From assembly GCA_903838035.1 (NCBI GenBank), contig CAILWW010000052.1, forward strand, positions 1 to 32,964: a DNA stretch of 32,964 nucleotides, written 5' to 3'. The translations under genes and the position numbers were made by a program. The notes beneath the pieces were generated by a model. The model was given only the letters and a program-made list of their open reading frames with translations. It had not been told where the DNA came from and did no database searches. The DNA is from an uncultured Actinomycetes bacterium (GTDB lineage Bacteria > Actinomycetota > Actinomycetes > Nanopelagicales > Nanopelagicaceae). This document shows positions 914-9,707 of this stretch, piece by piece (the stretch's first letter is position 1; each line of letters starts with the position of its first letter).

Positions 914-2775
914 TACTTTTCTGCCTTTCCATAGCCATAGAAATCACTCGTAACAACAGGTGGAGTATCAAAGTTCACAAGTGGGACTGGATAAGGAACG
1001 GTCCACTCGAGGGTCTTTGATCCCCATGGGTTCATTGGAGCAATCTTTCCAAAGCGCCATGAGTGAACGACCGCCCAGAGGAGAACGATCATTCCGATTC
1101 CAATCATGTAAGCACCAATGGTGCTGACCATGTTGGAGGTTGCAAATGTCTTGGCATAGTCAGAGACGCGACGAGGTTGTCCTTCTGCGCCGGCGATAAA
1201 CATGCCAAGGAAGAGGATCTGGAAACCAATCTGGACGAACCAGAATGAGATGTAGCCAGCGCGCTCGTTGAGCATGCGACCAGTCATCTTTGGGAACCAG
1301 AAAGCAAGACCTGCAAGTGCGCCGGTAAGTGCGGCGCCCATCAAGGTGTAGTGGAAGTGCGCGGTCACATACATAGAACCATGTAGGTAGTTATCGGCTG
1401 GTACATCGGAGAGATAGAGACCAGTGATTCCACCAACCAGCATGTTCCAGAGGAATGCGTAAACGCCGAGCATCGGCAGCTTCATCCACGGTCTACCTCG
1501 CCACAAAGTGCCGAGAAGAACCAAGAAGATGAGACCGGTAGGTACCGAGATCATCTCCGTAGTCACCATGAATGGACCGTTGAGCATTGGCATCCAGCCG
1601 GACATGTACATGTGGTGCGCCCAGACGAGGACCGAGAGGCCAGCGATTCCAGCAAAGCCCATGATTGCGGCGTTGTAGGAGAAGAGCGGCTTACGTACGA
1701 AGACTGGTGCAATTTCCATAAGTGCTGCAACACCAGGGATCAAGATTACGTAGACCTCAGGGTGTCCCATAATCCAGAAGAGGTGTGCGTACAACCAGCC
1801 GCTGCCGCCAAAGTTGGCGTCAAAGAAGGTAGTAGCAAACGTTCTATCCAAACCGGTCATGATCATCGAGACCATGAAGGTTGGGAAGGCTGGAATAGCG
1901 AGAGCAACAGAGACTGTTGCGCCAACCACGAAGATAGGAACACGGTTCCAGCTCATTCCCTTTGCGCGCATAGCAACGACGGTTGCGGTGATATTTGCAC
2001 CAGCAACAGCGGTTGAGATCGCGAAGATAATGATGGTTGCGATAAATGCATTCATACCCGGTCCAGCTTGAACGCTAAGGGGTGCGTATGCGGTCCAACC
2101 GGTAGGAATTCCACCGAGGAACCAAGCGCTGCAGAGCACTGGGATGGCGGTGAAGAGAACCCACCAAGAGAGTGCGTTGAGGCGAGGGAAGGCCATATCG
2201 GCAGCACCAATCATGATTGGCATGATGTAGTTACCGAAAGGACCGGTTGCAACGATGATCATCGCGATGATCATGGTGATTCCGTGAAGACCAACGAGTG
2301 AGTTGTAGATGATTGGGCTGACAAACTTTGATCCAGGCATGATTAAGTTTGTACGAATCATCATGGCGAGAGTTCCGCCAACGCCGAGCATGGTCATGAC
2401 GCCTACTAAATATTGAATTCCCACCACTTTATGGTCGGTGCAATACTTAAAGTAGCGCTTGATTCCTTGGCCATCGCCAGCGAGGTAGAGGTTCTCCTCA
2501 TCGGTCAGATCTTTTCCGATCAACCAACGGAATGGCCCAATGAAGGCGCCGATACCAATCATGAAGCCAAGGCTCCACATAAACATAGTTGCCAAAAGTT
2601 GGCGGTTGTATTCCTGGGCGACTGATTGATCAACGTGTGGGTTGATCAAGTAATAAGTCGCCAGTGCAAAAATAATTCCAACAACCATACCTGTACCCAT
2701 GTTGAGCTTGGTGATCAAACTCTTCTTTGGATTAGGAATTGGTCGGGTGGTTGCGTGGTGATCAAGTGTTGTCAT
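913..2775 (-). CDS. ctaD: cytochrome c oxidase subunit I (heme-copper oxidase, A-type)
   Basis: GHPEVYVILIPG, VWAHHMYMSG, PIMIGAADMAFPRLN, VTAHFHYTLMG motifs. Start placed at ATG 2775 (MTTLDHH), ATGA overlap with ctaC, rather than the longer ORF start at 2805. Confidence 0.95.
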   Translation of the reverse strand: MTTLDHHATTRPIPNPKKSLITKLNMGTGMVVGIIFALATYYLINPHVDQSVAQEYNRQLLATMFMWSLGFMIGIGAFIGPFRWLIGKDLTDEENLYLAGDGQGIKRYFKYCTDHKVVGIQYLVGVMTMLGVGGTLAMMIRTNLIMPGSKFVSPIIYNSLVGLHGITMIIAMIIVATGPFGNYIMPIMIGAADMAFPRLNALSWWVLFTAIPVLCSAWFLGGIPTGWTAYAPLSVQAGPGMNAFIATIIIFAISTAVAGANITATVVAMRAKGMSWNRVPIFVVGATVSVALAIPAFPTFMVSMIMTGLDRTFATTFFDANFGGSGWLYAHLFWIMGHPEVYVILIPGVAALMEIAPVFVRKPLFSYNAAIMGFAGIAGLSVLVWAHHMYMSGWMPMLNGPFMVTTEMISVPTGLIFLVLLGTLWRGRPWMKLPMLGVYAFLWNMLVGGITGLYLSDVPADNYLHGSMYVTAHFHYTLMGAALTGALAGLAFWFPKMTGRMLNERAGYISFWFVQIGFQILFLGMFIAGAEGQPRRVSDYAKTFATSNMVSTIGAYMIGIGMIVLLWAVVHSWRFGKIAPMNPWGSKTLEWTVPYPVPLVNFDTPPVVTSDFYGYGKAEK

Positions 2776-3563
2776 GCTGTGTGACCTCCTTGTGCAGTGA
2801 CCCAATTGTTGAAGTCAGCTCTTGTCGTGACCGCTCCGGTTGTCTCCATATATGCGTGATACAGGCCGCAGAGTTCGGCGCACTTCACATCGATGGTTCC
2901 AAGTTTGTTTGGAGTTGTATCTGCCAAAGTAACTTGGTAGCGATTGGCATCTGCCTTCACACCAAGTTGTACTGGCCAGAATGAGTGGTTCACATCGGCA
3001 GAGATGATGCGAAATTCAACTGGTTGGTTGATAGGAAGCATCAACTTATCTGTAGTGACATCTTGCGCTGGATAGTGGAAGTTCCAGACCCATTGGTTTC
3101 CGGTAACTTCTACAATCATTGCGTGAGGTGCATCAGCTTGAGCTTTGCCTTCGGCTGAGTTGAGTTCGATAAGTCCATAAACAACTGCGACTAAGCAGAG
3201 CATGCTGGAAACTACCGACCAGAGAATGACGATTGGTCCGCGAGTGCGAATTGCTGGGCCATCTTCAGGGGGGGTATCGCCCTTATGGCGATTGAAGAAT
3301 GTGTAGAGGGTGATTGCTACAACCGTTCCACAAACTGGCGCAGAGATCCAGGTGAAGATCACCATCAAGCGTTCGATGGACTTCATATCAGTGCTGAGCG
3401 CGGTTGGCATCCATTTGGTGTACCACCAGCCGCCGATGATGACGGTGAGGGCGGTGATTGCTACTCCTAGCGCGCTTGCGATGATCACATCTCTGCGCTT
3501 GAAGAAGTTGGTTAATTTTTCGCCAGGCGTTGGTGCCATTGATTCGTTCTCGTGGTTACTCAC
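2772..3563 (-). CDS. ctaC: cytochrome c oxidase subunit II with CuA domain
   Basis: Two N-terminal TM segments; VNHSFWPVQLG and CAELCGLYHAYM CuA motif. Start placed at GTG 3563 (GTGA overlap with upstream gene). Confidence 0.93.
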   Translation of the reverse strand: MSNHENESMAPTPGEKLTNFFKRRDVIIASALGVAITALTVIIGGWWYTKWMPTALSTDMKSIERLMVIFTWISAPVCGTVVAITLYTFFNRHKGDTPPEDGPAIRTRGPIVILWSVVSSMLCLVAVVYGLIELNSAEGKAQADAPHAMIVEVTGNQWVWNFHYPAQDVTTDKLMLPINQPVEFRIISADVNHSFWPVQLGVKADANRYQVTLADTTPNKLGTIDVKCAELCGLYHAYMETTGAVTTRADFNNWVTAQGGHTA

Positions 3564-4300
3564 GCAACACTCACCTTTCCTGACATATATCCGTATGAGC
3601 CCATAACTGCACCGAACCCCTGATAGGTGCCATCGCCGCATGGATATTCACAGTTCCATACATATTCGCCCTTACCGCCGGTGATAAAGGAGAAGGTCAC
3701 TGTGTGGCCCTGGAGCTTGGTTCCCGCATCTGTCGTAGGGAGGAAGTCACCCTTTTCATTGGTAGAAACACGGAGAAGTGGAACATTTACATAGAGTGGA
3801 TCTTGTGACGTCGTTGGGAGTCCATGGAGAGTGAAGGTGTGCTGCACTTGATCGGCAGGTATTGAAGTTACATCCTGACCATCAACATTCATAGTGCCAC
3901 CCACGGTTCCGACAACGCGGCCAAAGTATGGATTGTTGAGTTTCTCACCAGAGTCATAGACGTGAATAGTCATCGTCACATATGTATGTGCAGGAAGCAC
4001 AATATGAGTTGACGGTCCGTATTGAACCCAATCCTTCTTATTATTTGCTGTGCTTCCATGGTCAATCGCGGTTTGACGATCTGGATAAACACCGAGAGTT
4101 ACTGCAGCTTTGGGATAGCTCTTGCCATCAACAGAGATTGTGGCGGAGTCTTTAGTTGCATATAACTTCTTCTGTGGATCTGCGCTCGCGCTGTGGAGTG
4201 TGAATCCAACCGCACCGACAACTGCAACGCCAAGGAGCACGCCAACAATTGCGCTGGCTGTCCTCTTTCCTGCGGTCATCGTCGTATTAGTTCCCGACAT
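3560..4300 (-). CDS. membrane-anchored/exported cupredoxin-like protein, first gene of the oxidase operon
   Basis: N-terminal hydrophobic signal/anchor; HTFTLHG, beta-rich sequence, C-terminal YVWNCEYPCG...GYMSGKVSV resembling cupredoxin/CuA loops; GTGA overlap with ctaC. Confidence 0.7.
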   Translation of the reverse strand: MSGTNTTMTAGKRTASAIVGVLLGVAVVGAVGFTLHSASADPQKKLYATKDSATISVDGKSYPKAAVTLGVYPDRQTAIDHGSTANNKKDWVQYGPSTHIVLPAHTYVTMTIHVYDSGEKLNNPYFGRVVGTVGGTMNVDGQDVTSIPADQVQHTFTLHGLPTTSQDPLYVNVPLLRVSTNEKGDFLPTTDAGTKLQGHTVTFSFITGGKGEYVWNCEYPCGDGTYQGFGAVMGSYGYMSGKVSVA

Positions 4301-4430: not shown

Positions 4431-5216
4431 ATGGGACTTAATCCACTCTGGGATATCGCCTTCGCCCTCGCCCTCGGTGGCAAGCTCATTTGGTACTTCT
4501 CGGAGTCACCTACGCGCCTAGGAATCAGCAAAGCTCGCCAATTCCTCTTCGCTTTGGGGATGGTGCTGGCTTTGATCCTGCTTGTGGGACCAGTTCCTCA
4601 CATAGCCATACATATCTTCTGGGTTCACATGATTCAGCACGTTGGATTAATGATGCTGATCTCCCCGCTCATCGTCCTGGGATCGCCGGTGAAGTTGGCC
4701 CTGAACTCTCGATATCGAACTGTGCGCTCGTTCGTGCGAAAAGTTTCGAGCAATCTGGCTATCCGCCAACTCTTTCGGCCGCAAGTCGGCTTTGCGATTT
4801 TCCTCGCGACTTTGATCTTGACCCATTTCTCTCCGCTCGCCAACGCTGGAATGACCAACCCCAACATTCATTGCCTCGAGCTCATGCTCTTCCTGGCGGC
4901 AGGAATCATTTATTACCTCCCGGTGCTCGAAGGAAACCCAACACCCTATTTCGTCCCATATTCATTTCGGGTGGGCTCACTCTTCGCGATGATGTTGCCG
5001 GAAACGATGACTGGCTTCTTTCTCTATTCCGGAAATAAATTGCTCCACGATATTCCAAGTGGCGTAACAACAATGGCTGGCATGAGCGATCAACATCGAG
5101 GTGGCGCCATCATGTGGGCGATGGGTATGTTGATTGACGCAATCTGGATTGTGCTTGCTGCTCGTGATTGGTTTAATAACGAACGTGAGTTATCGGAGGC
5201 GATGAATAATGAGTGA
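4431..5216 (+). CDS. ctaG: cytochrome c oxidase assembly factor, CtaG/caa3_CtaG family
   Basis: Multi-TM protein with WVHMIQHVGLMMLISPLIVLGSP and MSDQHRGGAIMW motifs typical of the family; adjacent to oxidase genes. Confidence 0.85.
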   Translation: MGLNPLWDIAFALALGGKLIWYFSESPTRLGISKARQFLFALGMVLALILLVGPVPHIAIHIFWVHMIQHVGLMMLISPLIVLGSPVKLALNSRYRTVRSFVRKVSSNLAIRQLFRPQVGFAIFLATLILTHFSPLANAGMTNPNIHCLELMLFLAAGIIYYLPVLEGNPTPYFVPYSFRVGSLFAMMLPETMTGFFLYSGNKLLHDIPSGVTTMAGMSDQHRGGAIMWAMGMLIDAIWIVLAARDWFNNERELSEAMNNE

Positions 5217-5457
5217 GCGGCCATCGATGCAAGAACCAGATCCAAAACGTAAATGGATTTTGCTAGGTATTCCACTCTGCATTGTGATGGGATTTCTGGA
5301 ATTAGATCGTGCGCTCTCTGGAAATCACCGAAGCTGGTTATATGTTTTTGAATGGCCATTCTTCGGCATATTTATTTACTACATGTACTGGAAGTTGTCC
5401 CAACCACAAGAAGAGTACGACGACGTAGATGATCCACGTCGAGGATTGCTGGAATAG
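5209..5457 (+). CDS. small membrane protein of unknown function (82 aa)
   Basis: ATGAGTGA 8-nt overlap with ctaG; two hydrophobic segments; acidic C-terminus. Confidence 0.65.
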   Translation: MSERPSMQEPDPKRKWILLGIPLCIVMGFLELDRALSGNHRSWLYVFEWPFFGIFIYYMYWKLSQPQEEYDDVDDPRRGLLE

Positions 5458-6918: not shown

Positions 6919-8592
6919 TTAAGCAGAGTGCGAACGGAAGCTCTGGATGAACTTCTCCGCGCGGATGGCCGCAATACCTACCTTGGGCAGGTCTTTAGCG
7001 CCTGGGTAGAGGACATAGCGAGCGCGCCATTCGGGCTGAAACTTGGCGTTGAATCGATACAAAGACTCAACCGGAAACCAATTGGAGAAGAAGCGAATGA
7101 TGTTGCGCAGCGTTCGAGTAATAAATCCTGCGCTAATTTTATCTGCGCGCTCAAAGAGCGATCTAAAGGCAGCAAAGTTAAGCGAGATATACTTAATTTT
7201 ATTTTCTTTTGCCCATTCAGTAGTTCCGACAATCATAAGTTCGGTAATACCAGGATCGCTACCTCGTTCGCGTTGCATGCGATCGAGTGAGAGTGAATCT
7301 GCATCCCACGGAACAAAATGTAAGAAACCAGTTTTGACTCCATCGATTTCAGCAATTGTGATGATGCAATCCTCATCAAAGGGATCGCCAAATCGATCCA
7401 GTCCCATCGAAAAACCGCGGTCTGGAACTCCATAGCGCCACTCTTTTGCTAGGCGAACGAGCTCTAGTTGGTCATCCTTCGAGAGCGAGGAAAATTTTAT
7501 TGTGTAACAGGAGTAGCCCTTGCGCTTGATGCGATTAACCATCTGGCGAACGTTTGCCATTGGTCGACCTTCGAGCGTGAACTCTTCAACGTTGATGATG
7601 GCTTCATCGCCGATTTCAAGCGCTTGCATTCCGGCGTGCTCTACCCAGACTTCGCCACCGCGATCGCCGGCGCCCATAACTGCAGGTGTCCAAGCGTGCG
7701 CGCGGGCAACTTCTAGGAAATTCTCAATTGCTTCTGGCCAGAGGCTGTATTCACCAAATGGATCACCGCTAGCCAGCATGACTCCGCCTTCAACGCGGTA
7801 AGCAATACCTGCCTTTTTATTATTCGACCAGACCACGCTCTTATCGCGTCGGGTGGCGAAGTAACCAAGTGAATCCTGTTCTTGATCATGCTTAATTAAC
7901 TTCTTCACGAGCTGAAGTTCTTCATCACTCATCTTCGGAATTGGCTTCACGCGCCGAAAGAAGAGCCAGAGCGGAATTATGAGCGTGAGCACGCCAAGGG
8001 AGAGCATGGTGGTATCAAAGGTGTCGCCTACGCCTTCACCTTTAAAATGCAGAGTTCCGGTGACGCCAATCAAACCTTTGAGGATGGCGAGCAGAATCAA
8101 GCCAAAAGATGGATTTCCCACGACTTGGTGATCGTGGCGAAAATAAATCAGAAAGAGACCAATCACAACGACTGCAATCAAGCTAAAGGCAAATGCACGT
8201 ACAGGCTGATATTTAGTTGTGGGATCTGAGACCGCATAAAACTCTTTGCGAAAGAGTAGGAGCGCAAGTAATAGCGCGACAACAACTGAAATTTGAAGTA
8301 GATGCGTGCGATTTCGAAAGAGATCACTGGCGAGGTTGATGATGAGAATTACAACAGTTATTGCCCAGGCGCGCTGTTTTCTGCGAATTAGCCCACGAGC
8401 CACAATAATCAGAACGACGCCGGTAAAGACTGCTGTTGCAAATGCAGTGGAATGAGTAAAGATCGGAAGATATGACTGAACTTTTGTAGCCGGTGCTTTA
8501 AAAGGATGTAGCACGTTTGCCAAGATGTCGATCAGGCCAACGACGTAAGCAGCGCGGCCGATTATCGCCGGAATATATTTGCGTAACTTCAT
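6919..8592 (-). CDS. MprF/LysX-like (DUF2156) membrane protein, putative aminoacyl-phosphatidylglycerol synthase
   Basis: N-terminal multi-TM region plus C-terminal GNAT-fold domain (GGVMLASGDPFG, FSMGLDRFGDPFDEDCIITIAE, YRFNAKFQPEWRARYVLY). Confidence 0.8.
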   Translation of the reverse strand: MKLRKYIPAIIGRAAYVVGLIDILANVLHPFKAPATKVQSYLPIFTHSTAFATAVFTGVVLIIVARGLIRRKQRAWAITVVILIINLASDLFRNRTHLLQISVVVALLLALLLFRKEFYAVSDPTTKYQPVRAFAFSLIAVVVIGLFLIYFRHDHQVVGNPSFGLILLAILKGLIGVTGTLHFKGEGVGDTFDTTMLSLGVLTLIIPLWLFFRRVKPIPKMSDEELQLVKKLIKHDQEQDSLGYFATRRDKSVVWSNNKKAGIAYRVEGGVMLASGDPFGEYSLWPEAIENFLEVARAHAWTPAVMGAGDRGGEVWVEHAGMQALEIGDEAIINVEEFTLEGRPMANVRQMVNRIKRKGYSCYTIKFSSLSKDDQLELVRLAKEWRYGVPDRGFSMGLDRFGDPFDEDCIITIAEIDGVKTGFLHFVPWDADSLSLDRMQRERGSDPGITELMIVGTTEWAKENKIKYISLNFAAFRSLFERADKISAGFITRTLRNIIRFFSNWFPVESLYRFNAKFQPEWRARYVLYPGAKDLPKVGIAAIRAEKFIQSFRSHSA

Positions 8593-9707
8593 TATCTAAA
8601 TACTCCCGTGTGTCCAAGTGAGTAACGCCCTGGTTGCGGATAGATAGCTAAGCCGTGGGGCTCGCGGCCCACCTTTATTTTAGTTAAAAATTTTCCATGA
8701 GTAATGTCGAAGACATAAACCACATTGTCATAGCGACCGGAAACCCAGAATTGGGTTCCATCGGCCGAGATTCCACCCATATCAGGGCTGCCGCCACCAG
8801 GAATGACCCACTTGGCAATTATTTTCTGATCGCTGAAACGAAGAACAGAGACGCTACCCTCGCCGCGATTGGTAATCAGCGCGGTCTTGGAATCGCGGGT
8901 GACATAGATGCCATGCGCTTCTTTGCCGGTCTTAATCAAAGTGAACTTTCCAAAATTATCTGCCGGCATTGCCCAGACGCCGTTAGCCATCATGTCGGCG
9001 ATGAAGAAGGTACTTCCATCTGGCGAGACTTTTACATCTTGCGGCATCGCCGTTGACTTACCAGTCATCGGAATCTTTGCAGTCTTTACAACTTCCATCT
9101 TTGTTGTATCCACCCATAAAACCATGGCCGAGAATTCGCAGGAGACGAGGAAGAAGTTTCCATCCTTAGTCCAGTCCGCGTGATTGACGCCTTCACAGGG
9201 AACGTTGAGTACCTTCTTTATCGCCATCGAGTGCGGATCGCGAAAGACAATCTTTTTATCGGCCTCTGACATAACGACTGCGTATTTGCCGTTGGGGGTG
9301 AAGTAAAGATTGTATGGATCATGGACATAAACCGATTTGCCCGCAGTCACCGTTTTTGGATTAATCGGAGTGAGGTAATTGCCCTCATTGTCATTGACCC
9401 ATAGGGTCTTGAGATCCCAGGAAGGGACGACGTGTTGTGGCCCCTTCGGCGTTTTAAAAGTCTTTACAACTTTGAAGGTCTTTGGATCAATGACGCTGAC
9501 GCTGGCACCGCCATGGTTGGGGACATAAACCCGCTCTGGCATATCTTTCACAACCGGGCTTAACTGGTTGGGGCGATCGGCGGCATAAATATCGTTCTGA
9601 TCGAGAACGGGTGGCATTCCAGCAAGTGGAGTCAGGGCTGATGAACCAGTCGCGGTCAAAGCAACAAATGCAAGTGATAGCGCCAGAATTTTTTTACGAG
9701 TTCTCAT
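8592..9707 (-). CDS. exported YVTN-type beta-propeller repeat protein
   Basis: Signal peptide; repeats such as VYVPNHGGASVSVIDPKTFKVVKTF, SPDGSTFFIAD, GREPHGLAIYPQPGRYSLGHTGVFR; TAATG junctions both sides. Confidence 0.8.
   Translation of the reverse strand: MRTRKKILALSLAFVALTATGSSALTPLAGMPPVLDQNDIYAADRPNQLSPVVKDMPERVYVPNHGGASVSVIDPKTFKVVKTFKTPKGPQHVVPSWDLKTLWVNDNEGNYLTPINPKTVTAGKSVYVHDPYNLYFTPNGKYAVVMSEADKKIVFRDPHSMAIKKVLNVPCEGVNHADWTKDGNFFLVSCEFSAMVLWVDTTKMEVVKTAKIPMTGKSTAMPQDVKVSPDGSTFFIADMMANGVWAMPADNFGKFTLIKTGKEAHGIYVTRDSKTALITNRGEGSVSVLRFSDQKIIAKWVIPGGGSPDMGGISADGTQFWVSGRYDNVVYVFDITHGKFLTKIKVGREPHGLAIYPQPGRYSLGHTGVFR

Follow-up and report, generated by a model that had tools for sequence, protein, structure and literature searches.

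An unnamed family of putative cupredoxins with an invariant, non-canonical candidate ligand set at the head of an actinobacterial oxidase operon

What kind of protein is encoded immediately ahead of ctaC in this actinobacterial oxidase operon, and what would it do for the oxidase? The window, a stretch of 32,964 nucleotides, corresponds to contig C52 in an actinobacterial MAG of 1.35 Mb that is 87 percent complete, and the statements made below about its own genome are the outcome of family searches of that assembly. The original prediction was of a diverged CuA or type 1-like copper protein with an incomplete set of CuA ligands, which could act as an extra oxidase subunit, as an electron donor or as a CuA metallochaperone. 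The open reading frame, here called cup (3560-4300, minus strand), starts with ATG preceded by a GAAAGG-type ribosome site, and its verified translation is a protein of 246 aa in which the motifs VQHTFTLHG and YVWNCEYPCGDGTYQGFGAVMGSYGYMSGKVSV are both present exactly as they had been given. The position claimed for it at the head of the operon is also right. The minus-strand order is cup, ctaC (2772-3563, oxidase subunit II), ctaD (913-2775, heme-copper oxidase subunit I or COX1, by Pfam and alignment) and ctaE (305-913, probable subunit III from operon position and conservation), and successive genes overlap: GTGA joins the stop of cup to the start of ctaC (a GTG codon), ATGA the stop of ctaC to the start of ctaD (ATG at 2775) and TAATG ctaD to ctaE. 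Divergently from cup run ctaG (4431-5216, plus strand; Caa3_CtaG, PF09678, E 1.7e-44), a proposed CuB assembly factor, and a small gene recognised by its conservation (orf82, 5209-5457, plus strand), whose 82-aa product has no family match and is found at the ctaG end in most relatives.

The CtaC of the window has the full set of CuA ligands (VNHSFW ... CAELCGLYHAYM), which are also kept in the CtaC sequences checked among relatives. COX2 is its sole Pfam domain and, as had been noted, it has no fused cytochrome c domain. A second ctaC of the assembly was found on contig C29. The same contig carries the sole cytochrome c domains detected in this incomplete genome, two in one frame and similar to the diheme QcrC of the bc complex. 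The oxidase of the window is therefore a second, distinct one.

In the product of ctaD about 110 additional N-terminal residues precede the COX1 match. The Lys of its K-channel is replaced by a hydrophobic residue (PTGLIF vs PTGIKF in the mycobacterial enzyme), and the same is seen in the aligned relatives, while the D-channel Asp, GHPEVY and the heme and CuB His are kept. For ctaE there was no match to Pfam COX3.

The AlphaFold2 model of Cup alone (pLDDT 82.6 over the full length and 85.7 for the domain) bears out both the membrane anchor, a single N-terminal helix at residues 10-39, and the cupredoxin fold that had been proposed, a Greek-key beta sandwich with the putative metal loop just before the last strand. 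Confidence in the model is lowest at the Cys/Met loop, where pLDDT falls below 50. The top PDB hits of Foldseek were rusticyanin, auracyanin, the CuA domains of N2O reductase and of Thermus ba3 oxidase, AcoP (7z3i), nitrite reductases and laccases, all of them cupredoxins or enzymes with cupredoxin domains, at modest TM-scores of 0.3-0.6. By sequence, the long form found at the oxidase had nothing above the cut-off in Pfam (COX2 included), NCBIfam or PADLOC scans, and PDB searches with the protein and with profiles gave no relative. Two short distant relatives (L230 and L232) fall narrowly above the cut-off of Pfam Cupredoxin_1 (PF13473), which ties the family to the cupredoxins by sequence as well. 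Weak matches to CbtB/DUF2613 were discarded, as they fall on the membrane helix. An origin by duplication of ctaC was also set aside: hhalign gave the Cup profile a probability of 0.5 percent against the neighbouring CuA domain, an insignificant match even if its alignment sets CEYPCG against CAELCG of CtaC, and therefore we make no claim of descent from CtaC. No study of this family in actinobacteria was found in the open-access literature. Cup thus reads, from its sequence, as a member of an unnamed family of cupredoxins whose candidate ligand set is non-canonical and invariant.

This set consists of H154, C217, C221, M233 and M239, all unchanged in 105/105 distinct homologs, far beyond what chance would give; a Pro ahead of the second Cys is invariant too. 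The first His, both Cys and the last Met had been singled out before, and their conservation is complete; M233, equally invariant, had been overlooked. H159 is kept in 101 of the 105 and lost in the most divergent. Over a wider set of 132 homologs the pattern C-x3-C-x(4,10,11)-M-x5-M holds in 131, the remaining one having x6. It was correctly observed that the C-x3-C spacing equals that of CAELC in CtaC and that, unlike in CtaC, there is no His between the second Cys and the last Met; actually, the loop between Cys and Met is free of His in 126 of the 132. In the short relatives the spacing is about H-x39-C-x3-C-x4-M-x5-M and, compared with the canonical CuA pattern Hx34Cx3Cx3Hx2M (PMC6189053), the first Met falls almost exactly at the position of the CuA His. 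The second Met comes ahead of the final strand, where cupredoxins have theirs (ba3: CGLGHQNMFGTIVV). Calling the CuA set incomplete was hence misleading, since the family has a conserved His-Cys-Cys-Met-Met set of its own with an invariant Met in place of the loop His, and we take it as a complete, non-canonical candidate set rather than as a decayed CuA. Copper binding itself and the role of each ligand we infer from sequence; the site would hold one copper or two, or perhaps none. We know of no characterised protein with a His-Cys-Cys-Met-Met ligand set.

The two Cys could also be read in another way, as a disulfide or thiol switch within a redox-sensing or structural subunit with no redox copper. 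Their closeness, the invariant Pro before the second one and the disorder of the loop in the model would all suit a switch of this kind, and similarity of fold alone does not prove a metal. A disulfide, however, needs neither His nor Met, and H154, M233 and M239 vary no more than the Cys do and are located at cupredoxin ligand positions, so that we regard the switch as improbable.

Among characterised systems, Cup resembles AcoP of Acidithiobacillus ferrooxidans in being a membrane-anchored cupredoxin with its gene in an oxidase operon; acoP lies just upstream of coxB. Both the N-terminal anchor and the operon context of an AcoP-like oxidase partner are thus found in Cup. AcoP copurifies with its oxidase (PMC5982212) and its ligands are H85, C159, H166 and M171 (PMC4059628), that is, one Cys and two His, whereas Cup has two Cys, one His and two Met, and there is no sequence match between them. 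The His-Cys-His-Met set of type 1 (blue or green) sites, with a single ligand Cys, is not that of Cup either, in which the second Cys is invariant and the loop His absent. CuA domains, as found in COX2 and N2O reductase, share with Cup the cupredoxin fold, the core His, the C-x3-C and the axial Met before the last strand, and the GEY...C...CG of Cup resembles the CuA of ba3 (GEYRIICNQYCGLGHQNM). But its loop is C-x3-C-x11-M-x5-M instead of C-x3-C-x3-H-x2-M (PMC6189053), and neither Pfam COX2 nor the profile of the neighbouring CtaC gave a significant match. From the proposal of a diverged CuA or type 1-like protein, then, the fold stands, and the CuA motif and family as well as the type 1 ligands do not. 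Sco proteins have a C-x3-C plus His that recalls Cup, over a thioredoxin fold that differs from it, and Cup has no match to that family. PCuAC has a cupredoxin-like fold and a Met/His copper site with the motif H(M)X10MX21HXM (PMC9145763), which contains no Cys ligands, unlike Cup, and no match of Cup to PF04314 (PCuAC) was listed at E up to 1. PmoD is a cupredoxin with a non-canonical CuA of Cys, Met and His encoded beside its enzyme (PMC6189053), and shows that cupredoxins adjoining their enzyme genes can have unusual CuA ligand sets, although the PmoD site differs from that of Cup: it spans a homodimer, comes from the N-terminal region and has one ligand Cys per chain.

The scan of species genomes detected 170 loci that encode Cup relatives, and the 79 distinct loci listed are all actinobacterial by title. 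Actinobacterial MAGs are the nearest relatives with a name, and among the more distant ones are Ca. Planktophila and Actinobacteria bacterium IMCC19121, so that the source of the window probably belongs in or close to the freshwater Nanopelagicaceae. The survey of related genomes shows that the gene is nearly fixed beside ctaC: it directly precedes ctaC in 100 of the 102 cases with context, adjoins it in 11 of a further 13, more distant, loci elsewhere in Actinomycetota, and is present in all 30 genomes that have this ctaC lineage in a sample of 100 relatives (one more, G023, was set apart since only a fragment of ctaC was seen at a contig end). In the two exceptions cup is found beside ctaG and then unrelated genes, with no ctaC following (L178), or as a second copy in its genome that is not followed by ctaC (L137, in G360). 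Where the oxidase operon is doubled or in tandem (L088, L181) each operon keeps its own copy. We found no plasmid-borne copy. Distances between Cup sequences correlate with those of CtaC (r 0.88) no more strongly than among other oxidase genes, and therefore cup is not set apart from the rest of the operon in this respect.

Some relatives are found in other respiratory loci. A lipoprotein-like homolog is encoded beside NrfD and a 4Fe-4S protein (L174, G065:C121) and four relatives in tandem beside NrfD (L230, G662:C15), in both cases with no ctaC; these proteins are secreted, and both loci have a histidine kinase gene nearby. Secreted, lipoprotein-like forms of this type are what could be expected if Cup were an electron donor unspecific to its oxidase, for example a plastocyanin-like shuttle, but the form at the oxidase is membrane anchored and almost never away from ctaC, and we give such a shuttle little chance.

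The main rival comes from the copper-delivery genes. Of 20 cup-positive members of the family 15 have Sco genes, and of 17 cup-negative members none has (Fisher p 3e-6, without correction for kinship); Sco genes lie within 12 of the 79 cup loci retrieved. Strong Sco matches are at G000:C23 and C83, and among the sampled family members matches of this strength are confined to those with the cup oxidase. PCuAC, on the other hand, turned up in a single cup-positive genome of those sampled. That Sco tracks the cup oxidase with PCuAC nearly absent keeps alive a role of Cup as copper donor, similar to PCuAC, for both Sco and CtaC: a CuA assembly factor, that is, a membrane-bound Cu(I) donor that, together with Sco, would load CtaC in place of the missing PCuAC. 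The soft Cys2-Met2-His set and the nearly constant company of ctaC agree with this, and a chaperone-like action has been proposed for AcoP too (PMC7463520). However, Sco itself already tracks the cup oxidase, there are relatives beside FeS/NrfD genes where CtaC is missing, and every duplicated operon seen has a copy of its own when one shared chaperone would suffice. We therefore see the assembly factor as rather unlikely, although still a serious competitor.

The three roles initially proposed are consequently not equal, and we favour a redox subunit or partner, because cup is paired so constantly, one to one, with ctaC and because it has relatives in FeS/NrfD loci. Specifically, there is perhaps an even chance that Cup is an AcoP-like redox subunit, or a tightly held partner, of a second and diverged heme-copper oxidase. 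An electron-transfer subunit or partner would account for the anchor, for the gene overlaps, for the one-to-one pairing of cup with ctaC and for the occurrence of relatives in a second respiratory context. Against it count the low confidence of the modelled loop, the modest structural matches, the two homologs that lack a following ctaC, the Cys2-Met2-His set, which also suits a Cu(I) carrier, and the lack of PCuAC in most cup genomes, which leaves the chaperone slot free. In such a redox subunit the single N-terminal helix would anchor the cupredoxin domain beside CtaC on the outer side of the membrane, and copper would be held by the core H154 and by C217, C221, M233 and M239 of the C-terminal loop, with M239 at the usual axial position and M233 in place of the second His. 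Electrons might then pass from a membrane donor to the copper of Cup and on to the CuA of CtaC, as proposed for AcoP in Acidithiobacillus; alternatively, Cup may hold the oxidase together. No electron donor for Cup was identified in the incomplete assembly. More speculatively, and with perhaps one chance in four, the site could be a dinuclear CuA-like centre with Met for the second His on a separate anchored subunit, which would add to CuA another copper relay in series; the same centre would be reused with FeS/NrfD complexes.

Cup would bring in an unnamed family of cupredoxins that is tied to an actinobacterial oxidase lineage with very abundant freshwater groups in it. The question becomes testable as one between an extra copper relay ahead of CuA and a copper donor that fills the gap left by PCuAC. 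Besides, a natural His-to-Met CuA, if true, would bear on the tuning of copper sites.

Elsewhere in the window, the gene at 8592-9707 (minus strand) codes for a YncE-like beta-propeller, probably secreted, with weak similarity to cytochrome d1. The product of the gene that follows is, on inspection by eye, probably an exported polysaccharide deacetylase.
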